This document shows positions 38,284 to 63,520 of a stretch of 64,000 nucleotides of DNA, in pieces. The translations under genes were made by a program, and so were the position numbers. The DNA lies in the NCBI RefSeq assembly GCF_027359395.1, contig NZ_CP114778.1, positions 372,001 to 436,000 of the forward strand, given 5' to 3'. The stretch is from Prochlorococcus marinus str. MIT 1013 (lineage in GTDB: Bacteria; Cyanobacteriota; Cyanobacteriia; PCC-6307; Cyanobiaceae). Every line of letters begins with the position of its first letter. The first letter of the stretch is position 1. The notes beneath the pieces are model-generated. The model was not told where the DNA came from and searched no databases. It was given only the letters and a program-made list of their open reading frames with translations.

Positions 38284-38409
38284 TTAAACAAAACCTGGAA
38301 TAATCCAGCCAGTTAGTCCGTAGTTAATGACTGCAGCAAAGAAGCCCATCATCGCGAGACGACCATTCATTATTTCAGCTGTTTTCCAGTAGTTAGTTTC
38401 TTTGTTCAT
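38284..38409 (-). CDS. hli: High-light-inducible protein, 41 aa
   Basis: Single chlorophyll-binding-like helix of the Hli/Scp family: AEIMNGRLAMMGFFAAVINY (residues 11-30) with the ExxNGRxAM motif, then GLTGWIIPGFV. Hli proteins associate with photosystem assembly intermediates and protect against excess light. Last of five overlapping hli genes; its ATG overlaps the TAA of the upstream gene (TAATG). Confidence 0.88.
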   Translation of the reverse strand: MNKETNYWKTAEIMNGRLAMMGFFAAVINYGLTGWIIPGFV

Positions 38410-38558
38410 TACACGAAACCTGGAATGATTTGACCTGTTGTTGCATATGCACCAACTAGAGCAATGCATCCAAATAATGCAGCATAGCCGTTAAGTCTTT
38501 CTGCAGTTACCTTTTCAGGATCAATGTTTCTGCTGTTGTTGTTGTTTTGAGTAGTCAT
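38409..38558 (-). CDS. hli: High-light-inducible protein, 49 aa
   Basis: Polar N-terminus MTTQNNNNSRNIDPEKVTAE then RLNGYAALFGCIALVGAYAT with the (E)RxNGxxAxxG motif and the common TTGQIIPGFV ending. Overlaps both neighbours through TAATG junctions. Fourth gene in the transcript. Confidence 0.88.
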   Translation of the reverse strand: MTTQNNNNSRNIDPEKVTAERLNGYAALFGCIALVGAYATTGQIIPGFV

Positions 38559-38704
38559 TACACAACACCTGGAATGATTTGACCTGTTGTTAGATATGCA
38601 CCAATGAGTGCCCAGCATCCAACAAATGCTGCGTAGCCATTGAGTCTTTCAGCAATTACTTTGCCTTCTTCAACTCTTGGAGTTTCAGTGGTTTGATTTT
38701 TCAT
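38558..38704 (-). CDS. hli: High-light-inducible protein, 48 aa
   Basis: MKNQTTETPRVEEGKVIAER then LNGYAAFVGCWALIGAYLTT and GQIIPGVV. AERLNG motif. Its stop overlaps the start of the 49-aa hli gene and its start overlaps the stop of the 39-aa gene. Confidence 0.88.
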   Translation of the reverse strand: MKNQTTETPRVEEGKVIAERLNGYAAFVGCWALIGAYLTTGQIIPGVV

Positions 38705-38823
38705 TAAACGACACCTGGAATAAGTTGACCGGTTGTTAGATAGATACCTGTTAGTAGAACGAATGCCATCATGGCTGGTCTGCCGATGCTTCTTTCTAGG
38801 ATTGTTTTGTTAGATGGTTGCAT
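38704..38823 (-). CDS. hli: High-light-inducible-like protein, 39 aa
   Basis: MQPSNKTILERSIGRPAMMA, FVLLTGIYLTTGQLIPGVV. The usual NGR is replaced by SIGRPAM but the Glu-Arg and the TTGQxIPG end are intact. Second gene of the operon; it starts 20 bp after the first hli stop. Confidence 0.83.
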   Translation of the reverse strand: MQPSNKTILERSIGRPAMMAFVLLTGIYLTTGQLIPGVV

Positions 38824-38843
38824 TGTTATTGGTAGTTATTGGT

Positions 38844-38951
38844 TTAGAAAATTCCAGGAATGATTTGACCTGTGGTTGCGTATGCACCGAAGGCTGCAAC
38901 GAAGCCAAGCATTGCTGCCCAACCGTTAAACTTTTCTGCTTCTGGAGTCAT
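38844..38951 (-). CDS. hli: High-light-inducible protein, 35 aa
   Basis: MTPEAEKFNGWAAMLGFVAA, FGAYATTGQIIPGIF. First and shortest of the operon, with the AEKFNGWAAM motif. It differs from the hli at 48574-48681 at only three residues (A/M, L/I, V/I), a recent duplicate. The roughly 250 bp upstream should carry the operon promoter. Confidence 0.88.
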   Translation of the reverse strand: MTPEAEKFNGWAAMLGFVAAFGAYATTGQIIPGIF

Positions 38952-39204
38952 GATGAAATCCGAGATGTGTATGTGAATAAATGTAAACCAATTATTAATC
39001 TACGTAAAGCCCCAAAAGTACGGCTTGCCTCATGAATGTGGAATTCAGACGCAACGGATACAAAAAACATAGTTAATGCAGTTAATTCGACTACATAAGA
39101 CAAGAGTCAAACCAAGGCGTTTTTCTCTCACAAGAACAAATGCCTAACAAAAGTGTGACACTAGTGACACATAGCGTATTAGATATATTTTCTCTTATCA
39201 GGTA

Positions 39205-43712: not shown

Positions 43713-43909
43713 CAAAAAAATTAAATCAGATGCAAATTTAACCACTCCTAATCAGCCTCAGAGACCGTAAAGACCGATAGGGGTAATTGCCTTTCGGTAT
43801 ACTTCAATAAAAAGAAATAATGATAATAATAAGTCTGCCTGTATAAAAATTTCTAATCAATACCGCATAGAAAATAACGATACCAATGAGTAATAGATGC
43901 TAGGTAATT

Positions 43910-44201
43910 ATTCCTACACGGCTGACAGTGGTTTGTTCTTATATTTTTTGAACTTCTCAGGACAACCTTCTTTTTATACTGAGCTTTAGAAGGTTGTTTC
44001 TTTGAATAATAAACGTCAGTACTCCTCCCCAGAAGCCAATCAATTGATGACCAGTGCAATTGATTGCCTGACGTACATTTATCCTAAAATCACTTTTTCA
44101 TCAATAGTTCTGTAGGACCGTACGTCTTAGGTAGGGAAACCGTAGAAAGAATAAAACTCTTTTAATTAGACATTTAAAAAGGGCCCGAGGGGGCCCTTTT
44201 T
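43910..44201 (+). ncRNA. Candidate structured small RNA in repeat copy A
   Basis: In order: a perfect 10-bp hairpin (ACAACCTTCT 43962-43971 with AGAAGGTTGT 43988-43997), then a compound stem (ACGTCAG 44013-44019 with CTGACGT 44068-44074) enclosing a perfect 10-bp hairpin (CAATCAATTG 44037-44046 with CAATTGATTG 44057-44066) and an unpaired ACTCCTCCCC segment, then a GC-rich hairpin followed by T5. ACTCCTCC-type segments are anti-Shine-Dalgarno-like and occur in the cyanobacterial sRNA Yfr1. Transcription is inferred, not shown. Confidence 0.55.
44176..44201 (+). terminator. Bidirectional GC hairpin terminator, copy A
   Basis: GGGCCC (44181-44186) pairs with GGGCCC (44191-44196) around a GAGG loop, flanked by A5 and T5, so the full stem includes the A/T flanks. 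It can end transcripts on either strand; on the plus strand it closes the candidate RNA. Confidence 0.8.
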
Positions 44202-44378
44202 CTTTACCGATTCTTTGGAAGCTTCTGGATATTGGTGGCCTGGGGCCAAGTGTCTAGTAGAAAGGCTTTTTTACTCCGTTAGGGCACCTAAACGATGCAG
44301 AGGAGGTTCGACTGAATTGACGCACCTAAATCATTGATCCTTGTCGCATCAGACGAATAACCTACTTATTCATTGAGA

Positions 44379-44546
44379 ATGTTGGAGCAGGAACCAGAAT
44401 TCAGTTCGCTTCTCTTAAATACTCAGGTGGAGTGTCGACCATCAATGGTGCCTCTTAACTCAACAAACGTATCTTTGCTCTATTCGCACCTCAACGCAAT
44501 CAGCCTTAATGCCCATTGCATTTCCACTACACCTGATCAAAAATAG
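44379..44546 (+). CDS. Possible ORF in repeat copy A, 55 aa
   Basis: ATG to TAG frame in the right half of the repeat, starting MLEQEPEFSSLLLNTQVECR and ending HCISTTPDQK. Because the repeat is identical, the same ORF exists in copy B (55161-55328). No family recognised, no clear ribosome-binding site, and composition is not distinctive, so coding status is doubtful. Confidence 0.2.
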   Translation: MLEQEPEFSSLLLNTQVECRPSMVPLNSTNVSLLYSHLNAISLNAHCISTTPDQK

Positions 44547-44590
44547 TAAGTTTGGGGTCTAAAACTTTCATCTCAAATCAAACCATCAAT

Positions 44591-44935
44591 ATGTCGAGAG
44601 AACAAAAAATTAAACAAGCTCAAATAAGCATTTTCGGTGAAATAGCTAAAGAATGTAAAACTGATCATCAAAAAATTGAATTTTTCGATTCATCTAAGGA
44701 AGCATTTTTCACTGAATCAAATGAATCAACAAGCTCGGTTACTGAAGATATCCCTAAAGACTTAGACGACGGGTTTTACGTATACGCAAATATGAAAAAA
44801 CTTAGCGAAAAGGAGCTTGAAGAGTTAAAAAGTCTGCCATGGAAAGAATACCCAGAAAACTTTAAGATATTTTTATTCGATTTTTGCATCTTAAATGGTG
44901 ATGCCTATTCAAAATACTTCCCCAATTCAAAGTAG
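44591..44935 (+). CDS. Hypothetical protein downstream of repeat copy A, 114 aa
   Basis: MSREQKIKQAQISIFGEIAK, ESTSSVTEDIPKDLDDGFYV, then SEKELEELKSLPWKEYPENF. Soluble, acidic. It starts 29 bp after the repeat ends, so its promoter and leader lie in the repeat. Not recognised. Confidence 0.5.
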   Translation: MSREQKIKQAQISIFGEIAKECKTDHQKIEFFDSSKEAFFTESNESTSSVTEDIPKDLDDGFYVYANMKKLSEKELEELKSLPWKEYPENFKIFLFDFCILNGDAYSKYFPNSK

Positions 44936-45134
44936 TTTTAGCAATTTTCTAATACGATCTACTTAACGAATGAACGCGATAATTTGCTTGTGTGGCATAC
45001 GGAAAATCCCTCTAGCAAAGAATATTTAAAGACATCCGATAATATATTTATTGCAGTCAGGCCACAAATATGATGCGTTATTGCAAGCAAGGTAGGAGCT
45101 TTTAAATTGAAGAAATATCCTTATTTCTCACCTA

Positions 45135-45401
45135 ATGCTTGAAACAACTGTATGTACATTTGATGTGAATGTACCTTACGATGAATGGGTGAAAAAGTTT
45201 GACATCGACGAGGCTCCAGCCAGATCAGCAAAAGGAATAAAGGTGATTTTCAGAGGTGTCAGCAAAGATAATCCTGAAAAAGCGATCGTTGTAGTTCAAG
45301 CTTTAGAAGGTGTCTTAGGAAAACATATACAAGAGAACATTGAAATATTTGAAAAAAATGGTGCAGTCATGAGTACGGCAGAACCTAGTCTCTGGTCTTG
45401 A
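45135..45401 (+). CDS. DUF3764-like protein
   Basis: An 88-residue alpha/beta protein: MLETTVCTFDVNVPYDEWVK, GIKVIFRGVSKDNPEKAIVV and ending ENIEIFEKNGAVMSTAEPSL. This pattern fits DUF3764, a small family in marine picocyanobacteria of unknown function, dimeric barrel-like. Monocistronic. Confidence 0.65.
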   Translation: MLETTVCTFDVNVPYDEWVKKFDIDEAPARSAKGIKVIFRGVSKDNPEKAIVVVQALEGVLGKHIQENIEIFEKNGAVMSTAEPSLWS

Positions 45402-45468
45402 GGATCCAAATTGCTTAGGTATAAATAAAGAATCAAATCAAAAGATTAGTCTCAATTAAATCTGAACA

Positions 45469-45738
45469 ATGATTAGAAATCTGTTTTTCTTAATTCTCGG
45501 AGCATTTAGCGGTCTTTGGTTTATATGGCCTCAAATCATTACGACCAAAGGTTGGGAATGCACAAAAGATGTTATTGCATCTTCTAATGAAGATTTAACA
45601 GATATTGAATCATTAGTTGAATCCTTGCCAAACAGAATCAAATTAGGCTTGGCTGTTTCCCCCAAAACATTGCTAAAGAGAGAGAACCTTACTCGTATCG
45701 AGAAGCTCAGAATTGTTGGAGATGCTTGCTTTAGATAA
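45469..45738 (+). CDS. Signal-anchored protein, 89 aa
   Basis: An N-terminal hydrophobic segment (MIRNLFFLILGAFSGLWFIW) then KGWECTKDVIASSNEDLTDI and a tail with RIEKLRIVGDACFR. Two cysteines in the soluble part; probably periplasmic. Not recognised. Confidence 0.5.
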   Translation: MIRNLFFLILGAFSGLWFIWPQIITTKGWECTKDVIASSNEDLTDIESLVESLPNRIKLGLAVSPKTLLKRENLTRIEKLRIVGDACFR

Positions 45739-45792
45739 ATTAAAAGGCACAAGGAAAATTATCATTATTCACATCAACAAAAAGTTGGCGTC

Positions 45793-46296
45793 TTAACTTA
45801 TCAAAGCAATTGCTTCTTTTAATTCGTTCGCATGATTGATCTCATCTTGAGCAATTTCACGTATCCTCTGATCGTTTGGATTAACGGTTAGATACTTTGC
45901 ATAAGTTTCATACGCATGCTCTTCAATTTTTATATTTATATCATATGCATTTGATGGCGATAGTAAGTAATAAAAAACCATTACCCAGTAATAGAAGAGC
46001 ACCAAATGCCTGGCAAGAAATCGATCAACCCAATATCTATTGCCGCTTCGTGATTCCATCTCTTCTAAATGCTCCGTCTCATTGATTGCTTGGTAAAAAT
46101 GAGCCTTCATGAGCTTGTTGCTTAAAGGAGTCTTTAGGCCAAGCGACTCTTGTAAATGCAAAACTGATAAGAATGCAAAATAAGGTGCTCTAGCAATTAC
46201 CTCAAGAACCCAAAAACGTTGAATCGGTCTACCTTCGTAGATCCGATCAAGAATACTTACACTAAAATCTAAAACAAATGAATTAAAATCTTTCAT
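45793..46296 (-). CDS. ptox: Plastoquinol terminal oxidase
   Basis: A 167-residue di-iron oxidase of the AOX/PTOX family, which oxidises plastoquinol with O2 in the thylakoid membrane and acts as an electron safety valve. The six ligands are in place: Glu32 in LEVIARAPYFAFLSVLH, Glu73 and His76 in NETEHLEEME, Glu125/126 in EEHAYETY, and Glu152/His155 in DEINHANE. The segment YYWVMVFYYLLSPSNAY supports membrane association. The C-terminus lacks the longer tail of plastid IMMUTANS-type enzymes, as is usual for picocyanobacterial PTOX. Monocistronic on the minus strand. Confidence 0.88.
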   Translation of the reverse strand: MKDFNSFVLDFSVSILDRIYEGRPIQRFWVLEVIARAPYFAFLSVLHLQESLGLKTPLSNKLMKAHFYQAINETEHLEEMESRSGNRYWVDRFLARHLVLFYYWVMVFYYLLSPSNAYDINIKIEEHAYETYAKYLTVNPNDQRIREIAQDEINHANELKEAIALIS

Positions 46297-46414
46297 AACT
46301 CCTTTGCTAAATATTTAAGTATAAATACTCAGCAAAGGAATATGAGTTATAACTTATTTATTTAACTATCGATAGCTACTGAAGCTGAATATGGAAGTAG
46401 GCCGAAGATTAAAA

Positions 46415-46591
46415 CTATCTTGCTCGGACAGGTTGGTAAGCAGGAATCATCTTTCCTCCACCGAAATCGTCATCATCGTCTGGAAGCGCTCTTGAGATTA
46501 GTTCTACGAGAACTAGAGCAGCCATAGGATAGAAACACCATAAAACAGCTTTCCAGATGGGAAATGAATCAACTAGCTGAAGCTCAGACAT
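46415..46591 (-). CDS. Single-span protein with DDDDD-GGG tail, 58 aa
   Basis: MSELQLVDSFPIWKAVLWCF leads a membrane helix (about residues 13-33), then ALPDDDDDFGGGKMIPAYQP. It shares the helix-then-Asp-run-then-GGG-M layout with the ORFs at 49026-49202 and 55777-55911. Function unknown. Member of a three-copy small-membrane-protein family in this window. Confidence 0.55.
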   Translation of the reverse strand: MSELQLVDSFPIWKAVLWCFYPMAALVLVELISRALPDDDDDFGGGKMIPAYQPVRAR

Positions 46592-46760
46592 GTATCAGAA
46601 AATTGTTTGAACAAACCTAACTGATCTAAAAATATTTAGTGTTACGGTTAGCACGAAGTGAATGTTTATCTAATCGATCCTTCTGTAAAAAAATTACTTC
46701 AAGCCGTCTAAGTTTTCCACAGCTTCAGAGTCACTAAATAGCTCCAAGATCTAAATAAAA
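46592..46760 (+). other. Intergenic segment before the repeated RNA-like element
   Basis: AT-rich with no supported gene. Contains a DnaA-box-like TTTTCCACA at 46713-46721. Confidence 0.4.
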
Positions 46761-47013
46761 AGCAATTCCAATAAAAAAGACCCTAGGTATGGTGTCCTAC
46801 GGGCCTGGGTGATGGGGATCTTATTTTTAACTGTTTTTCAAGCAAATTGCAACCCCTACCATATCTGGTGTTAGAAAGATTAAAAAAACAGAAAAAAAGA
46901 CCCATATCTGGAATTATTAGCTTGCGTAATATGTACACAGCGAGTAGTATTTTCGAATTACTGGGTGATGGGGATCTCTCAGTATCTACTCCCTCAAATT
47001 TGAGGGTTTTTTT
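46761..47013 (+). ncRNA. Repeated RNA-like element, unit 1
   Basis: A 54-bp block (46766-46819) matches the reverse complement of 63458-63511 at 53 of 54 positions. It contains a hairpin (AGACCCTAGGT paired with the CCTACGGGCCT arm) and CTGGGTGATGGGGATC (46805-46820). A second CTGGGTGATGGGGATC lies at 46961-46976. The element ends with CCCTCAAATTTGAGGG plus T7 (46991-47013), while the first hairpin has a T6 on the opposite strand. Two outward-facing terminators thus enclose about 200 bp. Likely an RNA locus; direction of the main transcript is uncertain. Confidence 0.5.
46991..47013 (+). terminator. Plus-strand terminator of unit 1
   Basis: CCCTCAAATTTGAGGG (perfect inverted repeat, no loop at the centre beyond AATT) followed by seven Ts. 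Confidence 0.75.
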
Positions 47014-47107
47014 ATGCCATGAATTTCTGCAGATAATTTCTAAGATGGATTAAGGCAAAATTAGTGAAAAACAGCTCTGAACCTTATTTTTTTCCCAAAT
47101 CGAGAAG

Positions 47108-47320
47108 ATGGAACAAGTAACTGATGCAATTGGTAATCCCACAGCACTCTTAGTAGAGAGAATTTTTTGGTTGGGTTTAGGTGCATTTTTAGGACTGGCA
47201 ATAATTACTTCTTTACTAAGAGGATTAAAAGAAAGTAAAAACAAAACGACACCAATTTCACCTGATCAATTAGAAAATCTTGCAAAAAAAGCGATCCAAC
47301 AAAACAGTGATAGCAATTGA
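47108..47320 (+). CDS. Single-span small protein, 70 aa
   Basis: MEQVTDAIGNPTALLVERIF then a membrane helix (about residues 18-40, FWLGLGAFLGLAIITSLL) and a cytoplasmic tail SKNKTTPISPDQLENLAKKA. It starts 95 bp after the RNA-like element's terminator. Not recognised. Confidence 0.55.
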   Translation: MEQVTDAIGNPTALLVERIFWLGLGAFLGLAIITSLLRGLKESKNKTTPISPDQLENLAKKAIQQNSDSN

Positions 47321-47447
47321 TATTGGTTATCAGATATTTTTATAGCCACAAACAAATTTACTTATGGTCGTTGGGGCGAGAACCGTACAATCAGCTACCA
47401 CTGATTAGATGATGAGCATATATGCTTAATACATATTCACAAAAACA

Positions 47448-47528
47448 ATGAAATTAGTTCCTTACATATTCATGGCTGTTGCTATCTTCTCAGAAGTTTC
47501 AACAATTGCTACGACTCCTATTATCTAA
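47448..47528 (+). CDS. Possible microprotein, 26 aa
   Basis: MKLVPYIFMAVAIFSEVSTI then ATTPII: looks like a bare signal peptide or membrane peptide. Clean frame, very short. Confidence 0.3.
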   Translation: MKLVPYIFMAVAIFSEVSTIATTPII

Positions 47529-47610
47529 TTGAATATCATTAATTGAGTATTCAGACCTAACGCGTTCGGGTGAATACCGACGTTAGATTGTATATAACTG
47601 ATTTGTATTC

Positions 47611-47871
47611 ATGCTCAAAAAGATATTTAGGGCCGCTAGTTTTTTAGCTTTGTCTGTTTTTTTAACTTCGACAACTATTTTTTCAGGATTTAATCCTGCA
47701 GCCGCCGCTCAAATGGGTTCTGATATGAACGAAGACAACTCTATTGGTATTGTGATCGAAGAGTCTAGTGATGCCTTGGATGGTTCGAAAACTAGTGCTG
47801 CCCCAGACCTCGGAGATGATCAAGCGTTTCCTTTTATCCCAGGTTTTGGTAAAAATTCCGGTAAAGACTGA
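47611..47871 (+). CDS. Secreted acidic protein with FPFIPGFG motif, 86 aa
   Basis: Signal peptide (about residues 1-33, ending NPAAAAQ with a plausible AAA-like cleavage site) then an acidic mature region MGSDMNEDNSIGIVIEESS and DLGDDQAFPFIPGFGKNSGK. The GDDQxFPFxPGxG block recurs in the proteins at 56041-56286 and 59412-59672 (there as DxxFPFDPA), which share the signal-peptide-then-acidic design. A hairpin lies just upstream of the start. Function unknown. Confidence 0.65.
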   Translation: MLKKIFRAASFLALSVFLTSTTIFSGFNPAAAAQMGSDMNEDNSIGIVIEESSDALDGSKTSAAPDLGDDQAFPFIPGFGKNSGKD

Positions 47872-47973
47872 TTATCTTTTTATTGAAAAGTATTGATTGA
47901 TAATAAATTATTAATTTTTTCGAAAGCTAGAAAAAATCCACAGTTATAAGAGCTAATTAGCTAAAGCATTTTC

Positions 47974-48078
47974 ATGGAAAAATGGGAATCAAAAATAATC
48001 ATATTTGTTATGTTTGCAGTGCTTGCAATTGGGTCAATCGCGCCATTGATCAGGATGATCAGTGATCGTATTTCTTAA
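47974..48078 (+). CDS. Single-span microprotein, 34 aa
   Basis: MEKWESKIIIFVMFAVLAIG then SIAPLIRMISDRIS. One helix with charged ends. Clear start and stop. Confidence 0.4.
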   Translation: MEKWESKIIIFVMFAVLAIGSIAPLIRMISDRIS

Positions 48079-48210
48079 GATTGAATTTGATTGGACAGGC
48101 TGAGATCATTGGAGTAATTATTTCTAACATGATTACTTTTGGCATTTTTGGCTGATTAATTTTTAATTTGCAAAAAATGGAAAAAATGGATTAAATGCTC
48201 AAATGGAACA

Positions 48211-48240
48211 AAAAAAAATCTAGAGAAAAATCTCTAGATT
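48211..48240 (-). terminator. Minus-strand terminator after the 98-aa hli
   Basis: AATCTAGAGA (48217-48226) pairs with TCTCTAGATT (48231-48240); the A-run to the left is a T-tract on the minus strand. Confidence 0.7.
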
Positions 48241-48268
48241 TATATGAAGATTGATTTGTCAAAGCTAT

Positions 48269-48565
48269 TTAAAATATGCCAGGAATAATTTGTCCAGTAG
48301 TGATATAAGCGCCTAGTAAAGCAATCATTCCTATCATTGCCCAACGGCCATTGGTCTTTTCCGCTTCTTCGGGATAGCTGGAATAGTTTTCAACTAATTG
48401 AGTTTGTACTTGGGTAGCAAACATGTTTTGCTTGCCATATTCAGTAATGATCTGGTTAGAAGCAGAACTGTAAGCAGGGATTCCTGTTGGATCAACAGAT
48501 TGTCCTTCTGATTGATTATCAGTTGGATCTATTGATTGATCAGAAACTGGGTTACTAGAAGTCAT
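48269..48565 (-). CDS. hli: High-light-inducible protein with long N-terminal extension, 98 aa
   Basis: The N-terminal 60 residues are polar and low-complexity (MTSSNPVSDQSIDPTDNQSE and beyond), then YPEEAEKTNGRWAMIGMIAL, ending LGAYITTGQIIPGIF. The EKTNGRWAM motif and IPGIF end make it an Hli protein with an unusual extended N-terminus. It follows the 35-aa hli on the same strand by 8 bp, so they form a pair. Confidence 0.83.
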   Translation of the reverse strand: MTSSNPVSDQSIDPTDNQSEGQSVDPTGIPAYSSASNQIITEYGKQNMFATQVQTQLVENYSSYPEEAEKTNGRWAMIGMIALLGAYITTGQIIPGIF

Positions 48566-48573
48566 ATAAGAAC

Positions 48574-48681
48574 CTAAAAAATACCTGGAATGATTTGACC
48601 TGTTGTTGCGTAAGCACCGAAAGCAGCAATAAAGCCGATCATTGCCATCCAACCATTAAACTTTTCTGCTTCTGGAGTCAC
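48574..48681 (-). CDS. hli: High-light-inducible protein, 35 aa, GTG start
   Basis: MTPEAEKFNGWMAMIGFIAA, FGAYATTGQIIPGIF: differs at three residues from the 35-aa hli at 38844-38951. The frame stays open upstream, but the GTG at 48679-48681 aligns exactly with the ATG of the paralogue. It is co-oriented with and just before the 98-aa hli. Confidence 0.8.
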   Translation of the reverse strand: MTPEAEKFNGWMAMIGFIAAFGAYATTGQIIPGIF

Positions 48682-48846
48682 GAGATTAAACTCAAATAAT
48701 GGCCATGAATGTAAAGGAAAAGTAAAGGAATGTAAAGGGGTCACCCGTACACAGCAAAAGTTATCAAAGGTATTAGCTGAAGCAATATTTTTTATCCACG
48801 GTCTAAATAACAATTCCACTAACTTTGTTGAACTTAATTCAACTAG

Positions 48847-49023
48847 ATGGATTTAATACCAGGTGTAGTTCTTTTCTTTGGAGCCATTGGAACTGTGGCT
48901 TTACTTGGTTGGGATACTTTCCAAAATCGTAAGCCAATTACTAAAGCTGAAATGCAGCAGTCTCGTGGAACTAGAGCAGCTAAGCCACAACAAAAGAGAA
49001 GAGGGTTATTTAACAGAGGATAA
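48847..49023 (+). CDS. Single-span small protein with basic tail, 58 aa
   Basis: MDLIPGVVLFFGAIGTVALL is a membrane helix; the tail KPITKAEMQQSRGTRAAKPQ ends QKRRGLFNRG. Two bases separate its stop from the next start. Not recognised. Confidence 0.5.
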   Translation: MDLIPGVVLFFGAIGTVALLGWDTFQNRKPITKAEMQQSRGTRAAKPQQKRRGLFNRG

Positions 49024-49025
49024 TT

Positions 49026-49202
49026 ATGGGTGAAATTCAAACATACGCTTCAAACACAGGAGATTTTAATTTCCTTTTCGTTCTAATCATTGTTGGGACT
49101 TATCTTCTTTATGAGGTTGGAAAGGCAATAATGGACAACAACGATGATGATGACATGGATGGAGGAATGACGATGCGTGTAGCAGATGGAGCACAGGCCT
49201 GA
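49026..49202 (+). CDS. Single-span protein with DDDD-GG-M tail, 58 aa
   Basis: MGEIQTYASNTGDFNFLFVL, a helix to about residue 36, then MDNNDDDDMDGGMTMRVADG. Second member of the Asp-run family (see 46415-46591 and 55777-55911). Coupled to the 58-aa gene upstream. Confidence 0.55.
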   Translation: MGEIQTYASNTGDFNFLFVLIIVGTYLLYEVGKAIMDNNDDDDMDGGMTMRVADGAQA

Positions 49203-49309
49203 ATTGACTACCAAAGTAATACGTACTAATTGACAACAAAAATTTGTCGTCTTTAAACAGGTTTAGGGTAAATTGAATCTATAATTAGTTATCTATTTAA
49301 TTAAAAATT

Positions 49310-49447
49310 TTGAGCGAAGAAAATATCAAAAGAAAAATAGATGCTTTATTAAAAGAACTTCAGGAGAAAACAGGAGTTTCGGATGAGGAGATGGACGAAT
49401 TTAAAAAAATAATGGAACTAGCAGATTTTTCACAAGACCAAGAATAA
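49310..49447 (+). CDS. Small acidic helical protein, 45 aa, TTG start
   Basis: MSEENIKRKIDALLKELQEK, TGVSDEEMDEFKKIMELADF. Strongly helical and charged. A TTG start follows AT-rich leader; no upstream ATG is in frame. Confidence 0.4.
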   Translation: MSEENIKRKIDALLKELQEKTGVSDEEMDEFKKIMELADFSQDQE

Positions 49448-49476
49448 TTTAGGTATAAGTCGGGATGAATGAAGGT

Positions 49477-49629
49477 TTAGCGAGATGCGAGTTTTGACCA
49501 AATAAGCAGTACCAACAAGTTAAGCAATGCATATCCAACAGCAATTTGAAGTTGGTAAAAATAACCAACAATCGAGGAGGATCCCAAAATGATCAAACTA
49601 GTAATAAAAATATCTCTTGAAAAATTCAC
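49477..49629 (-). CDS. Possible two-span microprotein, 50 aa, GTG start
   Basis: A GTG-to-TAA frame on the minus strand starting MNFSRDIFITSLIILGSSSI and continuing GYFYQLQIAVGYALLNLLVL, ending LIWSKLASR. Two hydrophobic segments and a basic end suit a hairpin membrane protein. Alternative on the plus strand is only a 14-codon ORF with a strong GGAGGAT leader. Confidence 0.35.
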   Translation of the reverse strand: MNFSRDIFITSLIILGSSSIVGYFYQLQIAVGYALLNLLVLLIWSKLASR

Positions 49630-49672
49630 CTAAAAATATCAAGCACTATAAATATTCAGATTGAAAATAAAA

Positions 49673-49831
49673 TCATGAAAGTCTTATTTGATTTTCAATC
49701 GAATAAGCATTGCTTGTGCAGGCCTCATTGCCTGTAACTTGAGAAACAGCAATAACGAGAAGGCTTAGAGAACCAACTGCTAAAGAAATTGTTCTAATAG
49801 CACTTGGTTTTTTAGAGATTTTCTTGCTCAT
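49673..49831 (-). CDS. Single-span small protein, 52 aa
   Basis: MSKKISKKPSAIRTISLAVG, then a helix and VTGNEACTSNAYSIENQIRL with one cysteine. The open frame extends upstream, but the basic N-terminus beginning MSKKISKK fits the positive-inside rule. Not recognised. Confidence 0.45.
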   Translation of the reverse strand: MSKKISKKPSAIRTISLAVGSLSLLVIAVSQVTGNEACTSNAYSIENQIRLS

Positions 49832-49980
49832 ATCAAAAAATTTTGATGTAATAAGAATATGATTACTATCCAAGCATAAAGAGTATCCATTGATACCTAC
49901 TAGAAATAATTACCTAAAAATTATTAGAACAATTCTGAATAGAGCTAAATCAATTGAAAACCAGATTTAAATTGATTGCT

Positions 49981-50313
49981 TTATTTACAAGCTTGCGATG
50001 CTTGTTGCGAACTTTCTTTTAACAGTTCAATCCAATCTTGCAAAGAATTTAATGAGTCAATATTCAATTGGTAATAAACCCATCTACCAGTTTGCCTATC
50101 GGTAATCAAACCTGCGTCTTTTAAAACTTTTAAATGAAAAGATATTTTCGATTGCGCCAATCCAATTTCATTAATCAAATCACAAACACATCGTTCTCCT
50201 CCTGAAAGAGACTCAATGATTTGCAATCGCAATGGATCAGACAAAGCTTTTAGCAATTTCCTGGCCATTGCATTTTCAAGAACTACTTCGCTCTTTGTCG
50301 CTGTGGCCATCAC
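49981..50313 (-). CDS. arsR: ArsR-family repressor with As(III)-type cysteines
   Basis: A 110-residue winged-helix regulator. ARKLLKALSDPLRLQIIESL leads to GGERCVCDLINEIGLAQSKI, which carries the CVC pair (Cys42, Cys44) typical of ArsR-type As(III) sensors in the alpha3 helix, then the recognition helix SFHLKVLKDAGLITDRQTGR. A further cysteine lies in the C-terminal ASQACK. It diverges from the gap gene, with a perfect 20-bp palindrome between them. It should repress the gap-arsJ pair when no arsenical is bound. Confidence 0.88.
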   Translation of the reverse strand: MMATATKSEVVLENAMARKLLKALSDPLRLQIIESLSGGERCVCDLINEIGLAQSKISFHLKVLKDAGLITDRQTGRWVYYQLNIDSLNSLQDWIELLKESSQQASQACK

Positions 50314-50379
50314 AGAAGAAAAAATATAATCACATGATAAAACAAACCGCAGAAAAGGCTTGCATCGACAAACCTCTAT

Positions 50380-50399
50380 ATATCAATATAAATTGATAT
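50380..50399. promoter_or_regulatory. ArsR-type operator, perfect 20-bp palindrome
   Basis: ATATCAATATAAATTGATAT is a perfect inverted repeat containing ATCAA-N6-TTGAT, the ArsR/SmtB operator consensus. It lies between the divergent arsR and gap genes, 50 bp before the gap start, so it can control both. Confidence 0.75.
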
Positions 50400-50448
50400 G
50401 AGGAATCCAGTCCTTCATTGATTCACTCAATCAACTCAATTAAACGTT

Positions 50449-51474
50449 ATGCGAATCGGTATTAATGGTTTCGGTCGAATAGGACGACTTGTTCTGAGAG
50501 CCCTCTGGGGCAGAGAAAATATCGAGATTACACATATCAACGATCCATTGGGTGATGCAAAGGGAGCTGCGCATTTACTTGAATTTGATTCAGTACATGG
50601 TCGTTGGAACAAAGCAATAAGCAACGACCAAAACAACCTGAGTATTGAAGATCAACCAATATCTTTTTCAAATGAAAGCGATTTTATAAAAGTCCCATGG
50701 CAGGAAAAAGGAATAGAACTAATTCTCGAATGTTCAGGAAAATTCAAAACCCCTCAAACATTAAATCCATATTTCGATACTCTTGGAATGAAAAGAGTTG
50801 TCGTTGCATGCCCTGTTAAAGGTGAAATACAGGGAGAGGATGCTCTAAATATCGTCTACGGTATTAATCATGATTTATATGAGCCCAATAAACATCGCTT
50901 AGTAACAGCAGCATCCTGCACAACTAATTGCTTAGCTCCAGTCGTGAAGGTCGTTAATCAAACCTTTGGTATTAAGCATGGAAGCATCACTACACTCCAT
51001 GACCTAACCAATACACAGGTAATCGTTGATTCATTTAAGCCAGATTTAAGAAGAGCCAGAAGCGGATCACAAAGCTTAATTCCAACAACGACAGGATCAG
51101 CAAAAGCGATAGGGATGATATTCCCTGAATTACAAGGAAAATTAAATGGTCATGCAGTTCGAGTTCCTCTTCTCAATGGATCTTTAACTGATGCTGTATT
51201 TGAATTAGAGAAAGAGGTCACGAAAGAAGAAGTCAATCATGTGTTCAAAGAAGCCTCTGAAGGAGAGCTAAAAGGAATACTTGGTTACGAAGAAAAACCA
51301 CTTGTATCAATCGATTATGTCAATGACTCGAGAAGTTCAATCATTGATGCTCTCTCAACCATGGTGGTCAATAAAACTCAACTGAAAGTCTATATTTGGT
51401 ATGACAATGAATGGGGTTATAGCTGTCGAATGGCAGATCTCGTTTGCCATGTCATAAATCTCGAAAAAGGCTAA
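50449..51474 (+). CDS. gap: Glyceraldehyde-3-phosphate dehydrogenase, arsenate-detoxification type
   Basis: A 341-residue [25 protein letters not shown] is the NAD-binding start, [14 protein letters not shown] holds the catalytic Cys157, and [20 protein letters not shown] follows. Beside arsJ and a divergent arsR, it is expected to combine glyceraldehyde 3-phosphate with arsenate to make 1-arseno-3-phosphoglycerate, which ArsJ exports; this is the known gap-arsJ arsenate pathway. The enzyme itself cannot be told from a Calvin-cycle GAPDH by motif alone. Confidence 0.85.
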
Positions 51475-51484
51475 AAATAAAAAC

Positions 51485-52747
51485 ATGCGATTAACTGCAT
51501 TGCAACAATATGGAATAGTAACTACCAACTATTGGGCATTCACACTGACAGATGGTGCTCTAAGAATGCTAGTGATTTTTCACTTTCATAGCCTTGGATA
51601 TACAACATTAGAAATTGCATTCCTATTCCTTTTCTATGAGTTCTTTGGCGTCATCACTAATCTCTATGGAGGTTGGATAGGAGCAAGATATGGATTACGT
51701 CTAACACTTTGGGTAGGAACTCTTTTACAAATCGGCGCCTTATTGATGTTGATACCCGTTTCAAGTGGTTGGTCGAAACTTTTGAGTGTCATTTATGTCA
51801 TGGTTGCTCAAGCGATTAGTGGTATAGCAAAAGATCTCAATAAGATGAGTGCTAAAAGTGCCATCAAAACTGTCGTTCCAGACTCCTCAGAAGAAGATGG
51901 TGGAAATAATCAATTATTTAAATGGGTAGCTATCTTAACTGGTTCAAAAAATGCACTCAAAGGAGTTGGATTCTTTCTTGGTGGACTTTTGCTTACAAGT
52001 TTTGGATTTAATAAAGCAGTTGAATTAATGGCTATCGGTTTAGGTCTGTCATTTCTAATGACATTAATTTTGCCTGGAGATATTGGAAAGATGAAAAACA
52101 AACCAATCTTTAAAGACTTATTTTCTAAATCTCAAGGGATCAATGTCCTCTCTTTTGCACGCTTTTTTCTCTTTGGGGCAAGAGACGTATGGTTCGTCGT
52201 TGCACTACCTGTTTTTCTTGAAACGTATCTAAATTGGAATTTTTCTGAGATTGGAGCTTTTCTAGGATTGTGGGTTATTGGTTATGGTTTTATTCAAGCG
52301 TTTGCGCCCTCTTTAAGAAATTTATGGGGAAATAAAACAAGCCCAGGAGTTTCTTCTGTTCAATTCTGGAGCGCTGCCTTAACTGCAATACCAGCGCTAA
52401 TAGCAATAGCACTATGGAGACAAAGCAATCCAGAAATAGCAATTACAGCTGGATTGATATTATTTGGGTTCATATTTGCAATGAACTCATCAATACATTC
52501 ATATATGGTTCTTGCTTATACGGACAAGGAAAACGTGAGTCTAAACGTAGGCTTCTATTACATGGCAAATGCGGCAGGGAGACTGATTGGTACTCTCCTA
52601 TCAGGAGTTTTATTCATGCTTGGAGCTAATGCCTCTATAGGAATGCAACTATGTTTATGGTGTTCAAGCCTATTTGTATTTATCTCATTGTTGACTAGTT
52701 TACGACTACCTCCAGTATCAAATACAAAAGCTATAAAAAATTCCTAA
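51485..52747 (+). CDS. arsJ: ArsJ, organoarsenical efflux permease
   Basis: A 420-residue major-facilitator protein with about 11-12 spans. MRLTALQQYGIVTTNYWAFT, GVITNLYGGWIGARYGLRLT (about residues 56-75) and SGIAKDLNKMSAKSAIKTVV (about 115-134) match the ArsJ branch, which exports 1-arseno-3-phosphoglycerate made by the adjacent GAPDH. It starts 10 bp after the gap stop and is co-transcribed. Prochlorococcus carries this in phosphate-related islands, and pstS is close by. Good support from neighbours. Confidence 0.85.
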   Translation: MRLTALQQYGIVTTNYWAFTLTDGALRMLVIFHFHSLGYTTLEIAFLFLFYEFFGVITNLYGGWIGARYGLRLTLWVGTLLQIGALLMLIPVSSGWSKLLSVIYVMVAQAISGIAKDLNKMSAKSAIKTVVPDSSEEDGGNNQLFKWVAILTGSKNALKGVGFFLGGLLLTSFGFNKAVELMAIGLGLSFLMTLILPGDIGKMKNKPIFKDLFSKSQGINVLSFARFFLFGARDVWFVVALPVFLETYLNWNFSEIGAFLGLWVIGYGFIQAFAPSLRNLWGNKTSPGVSSVQFWSAALTAIPALIAIALWRQSNPEIAITAGLILFGFIFAMNSSIHSYMVLAYTDKENVSLNVGFYYMANAAGRLIGTLLSGVLFMLGANASIGMQLCLWCSSLFVFISLLTSLRLPPVSNTKAIKNS

Positions 52748-52788
52748 GACCTTCAATTAAAAAAATTAAATATCAAGGGAAAGAAGGA

Positions 52789-52986
52789 CTACTGAACCTC
52801 TGATTCTCTGTCATATTCAAGTCCAACTTCATTCATCCAAGCTGATTTCGTTTTACAGTTTTTACCATGCTCGGCAAGATGTAATCCCTCAATCGAAATA
52901 AATAGAACTAGTAGTGAAACTGGAATCCACCAGATGGGTGATCCAACTATTTCCTTCCAATTATTCATTGATTCTTTTTTTTTCAT
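52789..52986 (-). CDS. Single-span small protein, 65 aa
   Basis: MKKKESMNNWKEIVGSPIWW leads a membrane helix (about residues 15-33, WIPVSLLVLFISIEGLHLAE), then a tail with one cysteine (KNCKTKSAWMNEVGLEYDRE). Between arsJ and pstS. Function unknown. Confidence 0.5.
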   Translation of the reverse strand: MKKKESMNNWKEIVGSPIWWIPVSLLVLFISIEGLHLAEHGKNCKTKSAWMNEVGLEYDRESEVQ

Positions 52987-53044
52987 ATTAAAGAGCTTTT
53001 TTTAAGCTTAAGTTAAGAAGTTACTAGCAAGCAAAAACAGACAA

Positions 53045-53072
53045 TAAAAAAAGGAGGCTAATGCCTCCTTTA
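53045..53072 (-). terminator. Bidirectional terminator after pstS
   Basis: AAAGGAGGC pairs with GCCTCCTTT around TAAT; the A-run on the left gives a T-tract for the minus-strand pstS transcript. 20 bp beyond the pstS stop. Confidence 0.8.
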
Positions 53073-53091
53073 TAAGAGCATGAGGTTTAAT

Positions 53092-54063
53092 TTATTTACC
53101 AATACGCTTAACCGCAGCACGAGACTTGGCAAGAATATCACCTTTAAGAGGTACAAATCCAAGAGAGGGAGCCTTAGCCTGGGCTTTATCACTTAGCAGG
53201 TAGTTAAGTGATTCTTGGACGGCTTTAGTATTTCTACCATTACCAGTCTCGTAAGCAAGAATCCATGTAAGCGTAGCGATTGGATATGCACCCTTAGCTT
53301 TTGGGTTAGGATTTTTACCAGCTAAATTTTTATCTAGTTTTATACCATTAAGAGCTTTTGCTCCTGCTTCTGTTGTTGGCTTTAAAAACTCACCAGATAA
53401 ATTTTGAAGAGCGGCAGGTTTAATTACACCTCTAATATATGACTGGTTTACATAACCAATTGCACCAGGAGTATTACGAATTACGCCTGCAACACCTGCG
53501 TTACCTTTTCCACCAACACCAGCAGGCCAAGCAATAGATTTACCTGTTCCTAAATTCCATGTCTTAGAGAAAGCTTGCATAGAGTTTGAAAAAGCCTTGG
53601 TTGTACCGGAGCCATCAGAGCGATGTGCCCATGTCATTTTCCCTGCAGGACAACCAACTTCTTTCCAATTTGAGATTTTACCCATAGCAACGCGAACAGC
53701 TTGCTCTTGAGTAAGTTTAAGATCGCAGTCATAGTTGTATCCAAAGGCGATTGTTCCACCAACCATTGGGATTTGGACTAATCCACGAGTAACTTTTGCA
53801 ATATCTGTTGCTTTCATTGGATCATCAGAAGCACCGAAGTTAACGGTTTCATCAATGAAAGCTTTACGGCCAGAACCTGAACCAACAGCTTGATAGTTGA
53901 CTCGAGGTCCACCTTCTTTAGCTAAATCAGAAAACCAACGAGTGTAGATTTTAGCGGGAAAGGATGCACCTGCTCCACTAAGACGACTAGCCGCATTTGC
54001 GGACATGCCTGCGCCCACTGCAAGCAAAGAAGTAAAGATGAGGGCCTTCTTAGCGAAGGTCAT
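53092..54063 (-). CDS. pstS: Phosphate ABC transporter substrate-binding protein
   Basis: A 323-residue periplasmic binding protein. An N-terminal signal peptide (ALIFTSLLAVGAGMSANAA) precedes ASFPAKIYTRWFSDLAKEGG, VGSGSGRKAFIDETVNFGAS and RSDGSGTTKAFSN, the phosphate-binding and hinge blocks of PstS. It captures phosphate for PstABC, which is not in the window. The placement next to arsR-gap-arsJ is functionally coherent because phosphate starvation raises arsenate uptake. Promoter region upstream is AT-rich; no Pho box can be confirmed by eye. Confidence 0.93.
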   Translation of the reverse strand: MTFAKKALIFTSLLAVGAGMSANAASRLSGAGASFPAKIYTRWFSDLAKEGGPRVNYQAVGSGSGRKAFIDETVNFGASDDPMKATDIAKVTRGLVQIPMVGGTIAFGYNYDCDLKLTQEQAVRVAMGKISNWKEVGCPAGKMTWAHRSDGSGTTKAFSNSMQAFSKTWNLGTGKSIAWPAGVGGKGNAGVAGVIRNTPGAIGYVNQSYIRGVIKPAALQNLSGEFLKPTTEAGAKALNGIKLDKNLAGKNPNPKAKGAYPIATLTWILAYETGNGRNTKAVQESLNYLLSDKAQAKAPSLGFVPLKGDILAKSRAAVKRIGK

Positions 54064-54423
54064 GAGGCCTAATAAAAAAACTTGCTCTTATTTCATAGCA
54101 TCTAATTGATCAAAATATTTGTCATTGGAAATCAAATTAGCAATTCATCAATTTTTCTTGATCTATTCTTAACCTTTCGATAACCCAAGATTAATTTTCG
54201 TAAGAAATTAATTAGAACAGTGGTTTTTACTTGCTCAATTATTTTTTGCATGGGTTATTATTTCGATCAATATCCAAACCATGAAATCCGGAAACAGATA
54301 TCTACAGATGGATTATTAATAGATTAAATATAGGTATGGAGAAATAAAACGACTTAAAGATATTAGAGAAAGTATCAACTAAAATTATGAAAGTGCTAAT
54401 TAATACCTCTACAAAGAAAGAAG

Positions 54424-54654
54424 ATGAGATGGCCACCGAATGCAGCTTGGACCTCAGCCGTAAAAAGAGAAGGTTATCGACATTTTGAAGTTAAAAGCTA
54501 TGGAGGCAAAAAAGATGAACGGTGGGTAGAACTATTTCCAGTTAACAACAACGAAATTCTTATAAGAGTTCCATGGTCGGAATTAAAAACATATTCAAAG
54601 TGGACGAGTGGATGGCTTCAGTTGCCAAAAGATGAAGATTGCGATGGCAACTAA
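54424..54654 (+). CDS. TIGR02450-like Trp-rich small protein
   Basis: 76 residues: AAWTSAVKREGYRHFEVKSY, ERWVELFPVNNNEILIRVPW and SELKTYSKWTSGWLQLPKDE. The W-T-S...REG-x-RHF...WVEL...VPW-x-ELK...GWLQLP pattern is that of TIGR02450, a small Trp-rich family of unknown function. A different short frame starts upstream at 54388, but this one is the conserved protein. It ends 31 bp before repeat copy B. Confidence 0.75.
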   Translation: MRWPPNAAWTSAVKREGYRHFEVKSYGGKKDERWVELFPVNNNEILIRVPWSELKTYSKWTSGWLQLPKDEDCDGN

Positions 54655-54691
54655 TCTTTAGAGAAAGTAAAAAACAGATATTTAAGTAATT

Positions 54692-54983
54692 ATTCCTACA
54701 CGGCTGACAGTGGTTTGTTCTTATATTTTTTGAACTTCTCAGGACAACCTTCTTTTTATACTGAGCTTTAGAAGGTTGTTTCTTTGAATAATAAACGTCA
54801 GTACTCCTCCCCAGAAGCCAATCAATTGATGACCAGTGCAATTGATTGCCTGACGTACATTTATCCTAAAATCACTTTTTCATCAATAGTTCTGTAGGAC
54901 CGTACGTCTTAGGTAGGGAAACCGTAGAAAGAATAAAACTCTTTTAATTAGACATTTAAAAAGGGCCCGAGGGGGCCCTTTTT
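54692..54983 (+). ncRNA. Candidate structured small RNA in repeat copy B
   Basis: Same nested hairpins and exposed ACTCCTCCCC as in copy A, ending at the terminator below. If transcribed, the cell would make two identical RNAs from two loci. Confidence 0.55.
54958..54983 (+). terminator. Bidirectional GC hairpin terminator, copy B
   Basis: GGGCCC-GAGG-GGGCCC flanked by A5 and T5, identical to the copy A terminator. Confidence 0.8.
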
Positions 54984-55371
54984 CTTTACCGATTCTTTGG
55001 AAGCTTCTGGATATTGGTGGCCTGGGGCCAAGTGTCTAGTAGAAAGGCTTTTTTACTCCGTTAGGGCACCTAAACGATGCAGAGGAGGTTCGACTGAATT
55101 GACGCACCTAAATCATTGATCCTTGTCGCATCAGACGAATAACCTACTTATTCATTGAGAATGTTGGAGCAGGAACCAGAATTCAGTTCGCTTCTCTTAA
55201 ATACTCAGGTGGAGTGTCGACCATCAATGGTGCCTCTTAACTCAACAAACGTATCTTTGCTCTATTCGCACCTCAACGCAATCAGCCTTAATGCCCATTG
55301 CATTTCCACTACACCTGATCAAAAATAGTAAGTTTGGGGTCTAGCTAAGATCTAATCAATAAATCAAAAAC

Positions 55372-55566
55372 ATGAATCAGACTCCAGAGAAAGAGAAGGG
55401 AATGAGCTTTATTAAAAAAGCTGGTAAATGGGCTCCATTAGTTGGAGGAGCATGGATTGTTCTAAATATTGTTGTTCCATTAGCTCTTCTTCGTATTCCT
55501 GCAGTCCAAAAATACTTAGTAGTACTTGAAGACAAACTCCCTTTTGATATTCCAGGTATTGGTTAG
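55372..55566 (+). CDS. Single-span small protein downstream of repeat copy B, 64 aa
   Basis: MNQTPEKEKGMSFIKKAGKW, a membrane helix (about residues 22-40, PLVGGAWIVLNIVVPLALL), then VQKYLVVLEDKLPFDIPGIG. One base separates it from the next gene. Looks conserved; function unknown. Confidence 0.55.
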   Translation: MNQTPEKEKGMSFIKKAGKWAPLVGGAWIVLNIVVPLALLRIPAVQKYLVVLEDKLPFDIPGIG

Positions 55567-63292: not shown

Positions 63293-63520
63293 AAAATAAA
63301 CTGCTGAAGGATCCCCATCACCCAGCTTTTCAAAAATAATAATCAAATCAATCAGATTAGGCAACATTAAAGCACCATATGTTTTATCTCAGGCTTAAAT
63401 GAACACCATCTGTAGGGGGGGGGGTTGATTTATATGGGAAATAGGGTTAGAAATAGTATCCCCATCACCCAGACCCGTAGGACACCATACCTAGGGTCTT
63501 TTTTATTGGAAAAACTTTTA
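63265..63520 (-). ncRNA. Repeated RNA-like element, unit 2
   Basis: Inverted copy of 46761-47013. Reading the minus strand: TTCCAATAAAAAAGACCCTA block (63458-63511) with the hairpin and CTGGGTGATGGGGAT (63458-63472), CTGGGTGATGGGGATC again (63310-63325), and GCCCTCAT-CTC-ATGAGGGC (63274-63292) followed by a T-run. A run of ten G at 63415-63424 replaces the four G of unit 1. The opposite strand ends at the T6 after AGGGTCT. Same outward-terminator layout. Confidence 0.5.

Follow-up and report, generated by a model that had tools for sequence, protein, structure and literature searches.

The repeat pair and its predicted minus-strand RNA

The window analysed here is a 64,000-nucleotide (nt) stretch of the Prochlorococcus marinus str. 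MIT 1013 genome (contig NZ_CP114778.1, positions 372,001 to 436,000). It contains a perfect direct repeat, each copy of which very probably carries a gene for the small RNA Yfr103. As an earlier note on this DNA had reported, positions 43904-44561 (copy A) and 54686-55343 (copy B) are identical at 658 of 658 bases with an offset of 10782, and the next plus-strand ATG lies 29 bp beyond copy A (44591) and 28 bp beyond copy B (55372). The ends are exact: the adjoining base differs between the copies at either side, and the match does not extend further. The genome, a single contig of 2,046,712 bp, has only these two matches to the repeat (E≤0.001). The repeat had been called non-coding, but it contains an RNA gene whose short open reading frame (ORF) is conserved. 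A listing of ORFs gives short ones inside the repeat.

When homologs were aligned on the minus strand, they showed a common 5' hairpin and near-invariant blocks, and in many of them a terminal hairpin followed by a T run. This alignment took in 35 of the 44 core sequences; it omits L084 and L085 (long insert), L086 and L087 (truncated) and near-duplicate second copies. From the conserved part of the repeat we infer a transcript of about 360 nt, read from the minus strand and ending at its own hairpin. A family-wide alignment and a model of the 3' domain place it at 44176..44535 in copy A and, by the offset, at 54958..55317 in copy B, the 5' end being set from a -10-like box and the 3' end from the hairpin. 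The putative -10 box, TACTAT on the minus strand, lies at 44543..44548 (55325-55330 in copy B) and is present in the listed upstream regions of the compared copies, except in genome G038, which has TAATAT. Downstream of it on the same strand, the alignment identified the 5' hairpin GCAATGGGCATTAAGGCTGATTGC (44496..44519; 55278-55301 in copy B) and the near-invariant blocks CCTGCTCCAACA (44380..44391) and GGCCCCAGG (44239..44247), and motif comparison among homologs a Shine-Dalgarno-like (SD) AAGAGG (44451..44456). The 3' end is a GGGCCC hairpin (44176..44201; 54958-54983 in copy B) with an A run before it and a T run after it on either strand, which we read as a two-way terminator; it was not listed by a terminator rule that requires T after the stem. 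A candidate upstream frame starting from the 5' hairpin (MGIKADC-like) gave a weak phase signal (p 0.047) and has no ATG in some homologs, and we read that segment as a hairpin.

The suggestion that the repeat is a portable promoter or leader for the plus-strand genes beyond it does not fit this arrangement: the conserved transcript would run the opposite way, and the repeat ends just upstream of the -10-like box. The promoter reading was judged from sequence only, and a simple consensus scan listed neither -10-like site. The regions upstream of the two RNA copies differ here (44562-44600 against 55344-55375). In the window genome a palindrome-like stretch centred on AGATCT lies upstream of copy B and not of copy A, so the two copies may be regulated differently. 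An imperfect palindrome at -29 to -58 is a described feature of Yfr103.

The window RNA folds somewhat better than shuffled sequences (z -2.59; 1 of 100 shuffles was as good). The covariation score was 0.168 against 0.119 for shuffled alignments, a value reached by 0 of 500 shuffles, although relatedness among sequences may by itself lift the score above shuffles and several helices are invariant. Both sides change in 4 of the 33 predicted pairs, 3 of them in one helix. No Rfam family reached its gathering score, permissive matches all lying below theirs, and a search of the repeat for transfer-messenger RNA and tRNA found none.

Family distribution and probable identity as Yfr103

The whole repeat as query (E≤0.001) matched 267 of 400 genomes of the family, in 49 of its 59 genera, and among the matches listed those outside the genus fall within repeat bases 273-623. 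The 3'-domain model was present in 62 of 388 genomes of the class, and every positive belonged to this family (Cyanobiaceae). Two methods agreed on 7 matches in genome G245, which we take to be Synechococcus CC9605; the 3'-domain model found 2 in RCC307, and genomes G100 and G103 have 9 each. In one record (L383, G114:C1:2267829-2269189) three Yfr103 copies stand in tandem with a spacing of exactly 450 bp.

These features agree with the published description of Yfr103 (PMC5069720). Yfr103 is described as a multicopy non-coding RNA of picocyanobacteria, 290-328 nt long, with a conserved structure and a function called enigmatic; homologs are named in NATL1A/2A, SS120, MIT9303, MIT9313 and Synechococcus strains including RCC307, and the seven paralogs of CC9605 accounted for 55.2% of the mdRNA-Seq reads of that strain in the sea (PMC5069720). 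The family found here is likewise multicopy and occurs in marine Synechococcus and low-light Prochlorococcus, the window RNA, at an inferred length of about 360 nt, being somewhat longer. Because size and distribution fit this account, with 7 matches in the presumed CC9605, the same number as its published paralogs if G245 is indeed that strain, and 2 in RCC307, the repeat RNA is very probably Yfr103, matched to it by description.

A group of genomes, g18, has a single match in each positive among the matches listed. We presume these to be high-light Prochlorococcus, partly on the likeness of one member to MIT9312. In the 8 fetched members of g18 a module stands 3' of the GCCCCAG block, and records L280-L287 and L390 have the GACAAGGATC..TTTAGGTGCG module moved 3' and the ORF MIDSLPEISE. 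The family thus presumably reaches high-light Prochlorococcus as a single rearranged copy.

A conserved short ORF in Yfr103

The short ORF MVDTPPEYLREAN lies on the minus strand at 44401..44442 in copy A and, by the offset, at 55183..55224 in copy B. Homologs for the ORF tests were fetched by the 3' domain alone, giving 263 records with 159 distinct sequences; L112-L233 were left out because the pattern that fetched them fixed part of the ORF. A purine-rich SD followed after 3-9 nt by a start codon and a peptide of the form [DE][TGS][PL][PT] was found in 149 of the 159 distinct sequences (137 ATG, 11 TTG, 1 GTG). Reading by eye added L030, L331 and L371, so that, with the partial L029 left out, SD and ORF are present in 152 of 158. 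The SD takes the form GGAGG in 108 of the 149, and the peptide has 13 or 14 amino acids in 127. The window peptide has 13 codons; other homologs encode MTADTPPEQIPEAD, MTDDTPPELSAEAS (from TTG), MDDTPPEYAAEAS and, in g18, MIDSLPEISE. Of the 158 sequences, 154 have some SD with a start and at least 7 codons; the same holds for 21 of 158 antisense strands and for 16% of sequences drawn from a first-order Markov model (20 rounds). Because of their common descent, the records do not provide independent counts.

Codon positions were compared in an alignment that was not anchored on the ORF, over a tree built without the ORF columns. In the DTPP codons, changes at positions 1, 2 and 3 numbered 21, 16 and 51 (p 1.9e-6). 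Among 315 windows of 15 nt that were scanned, the strongest was GCCGACACTCCACCT, which overlaps DTPP (2.8e-6, about 1e-3 after correction). All four third bases are used in the ACN codon and in the second CCN codon. Among homologs the start codon shifts position and switches between ATG and TTG, and the frame is kept. By this comparison the start signal of Yfr103 is under constraint, and Yfr103 is probably not purely non-coding but has its short ORF translated.

The pair across the genus

A match to the repeat was found in 32 of 41 genomes of the genus, and the 9 genomes without one are drafts with a listed completeness of 54-90%. The pair was analysed in 18 of the 32, selected for two full-length copies; genomes with a single match and four with a partial or core-only second copy (G007, G010, G025, G035) were not included. 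Across the 18, the copies lie in direct orientation between position-specific flanks, spaced 10.1-12.6 kb apart in 17 and 26.0 kb apart in G002. In most of them the homology has almost the same end points, and the adjoining flanks are orthologous by position.

In most of these genomes the two copies are closer to each other than to their positional counterparts elsewhere. Substitutions between the copies number 0-12 and gap columns 0-2 in 16 of the 18 pairs, less than in the closest same-position comparison between genomes. A tree of the 36 copies makes A and B of one genome sisters in 16 of 18. Because the mean same-position difference between the window genome and the 17 others is 36.9 (substitutions plus gap columns), the complete identity of the two copies here is not a matter of chance. 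Taken as a whole, the repeat shows no exceptional conservation: its identity to the 17 other genomes is 86-98%, whereas the gap gene from between the copies reaches 91-98% in those genomes. By these comparisons it is identity within the genome, not overall conservation, that is the repeat's outstanding feature.

Closer similarity within than between genomes, at conserved synteny, is the pattern of concerted evolution, and the pair appears to be old and homogenised by recurrent gene conversion. The earlier note had proposed a recent duplication or gene conversion; gene conversion fits, whereas the orthologous flanks in 18 genomes speak against a recent duplication, the sequence alone having been re-homogenised. 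A B-type upstream stretch stands on the A flank in five genomes (G006, G018, G021, G026, G038). This may reflect conversion running beyond the usual end; alternatively, as G038 branches deepest, the longer unit may be the older state, later lost from the other A flanks.

Deletion of the intervening 10.8 kb by recombination between the copies, which had also been raised, is possible in principle, yet the single-contig genus genomes G000 and G002-G006 keep both copies. An assembly artefact is unlikely, as five further single-contig genomes (G002-G006) carry the full-length pair with unique flanks. In G002, which we take to be NATL2A (G002:C1:962588-989273), the gap gene lies on the other strand within a 26-kb interval, and the interval is therefore read as partly rearranged. 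Elsewhere in the family, two copies in G245 that lie about 0.5 Mb apart (L243 and L250) are identical over the compared stretch and have a common ORF frameshift; we take this identity as another sign of homogenisation.

Weighing the explanations

Taken together, the comparisons favour an old, fixed-position pair of yfr103 genes, each encoding a minus-strand RNA of about 360 nt, kept alike by gene conversion and with the short ORF translated. We put the probability of this joint reading at about 0.8. The following results weigh against it. Two pairs are exceptions: the G001 copies differ at 34 positions against 15 for the nearest same-position relative, and those of G002 at 18 against 14. The 4 pairs that change on both sides are no more than in shuffled alignments (3.6; 286 of 500). 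The signal by codon position is weak when the ORF is taken whole (168, 175 and 201 changes; p 0.041), the C-terminal codons show none (p 0.15), and two of four control blocks outside the ORF also gave low values (p 0.17, 0.016, 0.047 and 0.32). Six of the 158 distinct records have no intact ORF: it is frameshifted in the identical pair L243/L250 and missing in L338, L340, L353, L375 and L377. The PP motif is lost in g18 and in a group of paralogs with DGPTE.

The weak signal over the ORF, its absence from the last codons and the records without an intact frame are what would be expected if Yfr103 were a purely structural or regulatory RNA and the ORF a by-product of its conserved sequence; some RNA blocks outside the ORF are indeed more conserved than the ORF itself. 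We nevertheless consider this explanation unlikely. It leaves unexplained that 152 of 158 records have SD, start and frame, that change in DTPP falls on third positions, and that the frame is kept while the start shifts and changes codon. Moreover, if the second Pro codon paired with the SD, as the consensus fold suggests, its free third base would not be tolerated.

Strong purifying selection could by itself keep the copies identical, and some stretches of the RNA core differ little from species to species. This is very improbable, because segments that vary between genomes, such as repeat bases 241-270 with 20 variable sites, sit within the same 16 of 18 pairs that hardly differ inside a genome. 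Least probable of all is that a segment was recently duplicated or that a mobile cassette was inserted twice, which would explain the perfect identity in the window genome but not why this genome has only two full copies, nor why the pair lies between the same orthologous flanks in 18 genomes rather than at variable sites and copy numbers, nor why 50,697 phage records contain no match to the repeat and the 2 matches in a pattern scan of viral contigs are not recovered by the 3'-domain model.

Possible mechanism and relation to known systems

For the converted, translated pair we propose that recombination between the copies repeatedly replaces the sequence of one by that of the other, reaching about as far as their homology does, and that selection for an identical, highly dosed product presumably maintains both. 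Ribosomes would bind the SD and translate the short ORF, of 13-14 codons in most homologs, with its conserved M-x-(x)-DTPP start. More speculatively, translation may be coupled to RNA folding. The codons GAA GC (44408-44412) pair with GCTTC (44218-44222) in the consensus fold, and because they overlap one strand of this GAAGC/GCUUC long-range helix, ribosomes on the last codons would open it. Covariation does not support this helix, the minimum-free-energy structure of the single sequence lacks it, and its pairing probability in the window RNA is about 0.01. A PP motif could slow ribosomes through pausing that depends on elongation factor P, but g18 and the DGPTE paralogs no longer have it, so the proposed mechanism does not rest on it.

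Yfr103 would then act as a dual-function or a ribosome-sensing regulator. A dual-function RNA is the most likely. We hold only as a doubtful possibility that Yfr103 engages ribosomes as its function, the DTPP-start ORF loading them and their progress refolding the RNA, so that it would report or buffer translational capacity while identical, converted copies sustain its dose. We grade this lower because the window RNA alone rarely forms the long-range helix.

The published Yfr103 (PMC5069720) resembles the RNA described here in being multicopy, with seven CC9605 paralogs, and in its picocyanobacterial range; the available part of that account makes no mention of an SD or ORF, gene conversion or a high-light homolog. 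Unlike it, the RNA here occurs as a pair, each copy sharing a converted 658-bp unit with a second RNA element. Yfr6 and Yfr9 of Prochlorococcus MED4 were also proposed to combine a short ORF with an RNA function (PMC2518516). They are likened by description, and differ in ORFs of 33 and 44 amino acids, other loci, antisense partners and a proposed toxin-antitoxin role. SgrS/SgrT, SR1 and RNAIII are regulatory RNAs that also encode a small peptide (PMC5126843, PMC2518516), but these have peptides of 26-43 amino acids and known targets, whereas the peptides of the window family mostly have 13-14. Cyanobacterial psbA and psbD paralogs are homogenised within species, syntenically for psbD (PMC6053082); these are protein genes, whereas yfr103 is a small RNA gene.

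A literature search that took in few subscription papers and no supplements found no report of an ORF in Yfr103, its gene conversion or high-light homologs, nor of concerted evolution of small RNA genes. Within that scope, Yfr103 itself was already known, and the ORF, the gene conversion and the high-light homologs appear to be new. Yfr103 has been reported as the most abundant transcript in some marine picocyanobacterial populations, and a conserved translation start makes its enigmatic function directly testable. The pair would also be a clear example of a small RNA gene subject to gene conversion.

A second RNA candidate and other repeats

On the plus strand, the repeat holds a second RNA candidate (43925..44210 in copy A; 54707-54992 in copy B; fold z -3.0 against shuffles), with a hairpin at 43960-44000 and a CTCCTCCCCAG motif from 44022 (in copy B, +10782). 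Its transcript would converge on Yfr103 at the common GGGCCC hairpin. Relatives whose hairpin arms differ are found at other loci, singly in G002, G006, G030 and G037. A model built from seven genus sequences found the element in 13 of 151 family genomes, all of this genus, so that as far as searched it is restricted to the genus. Its ACUCCUC stretch and CTCCTCCCC motif resemble the motif of Yfr1/Yfr10, which contains UCCU, so that it may be related to them by motif.

Other repeats in the window are tandem-like families at 38389-38953 and 48575-48683 (61-85% identity) and an inverted pair at 46758-46856 and 63421-63519 (82% identity). The stretch at 48575-48683 overlaps an ORF ending ATTGQIIPGIF, which is presumably an hli gene.

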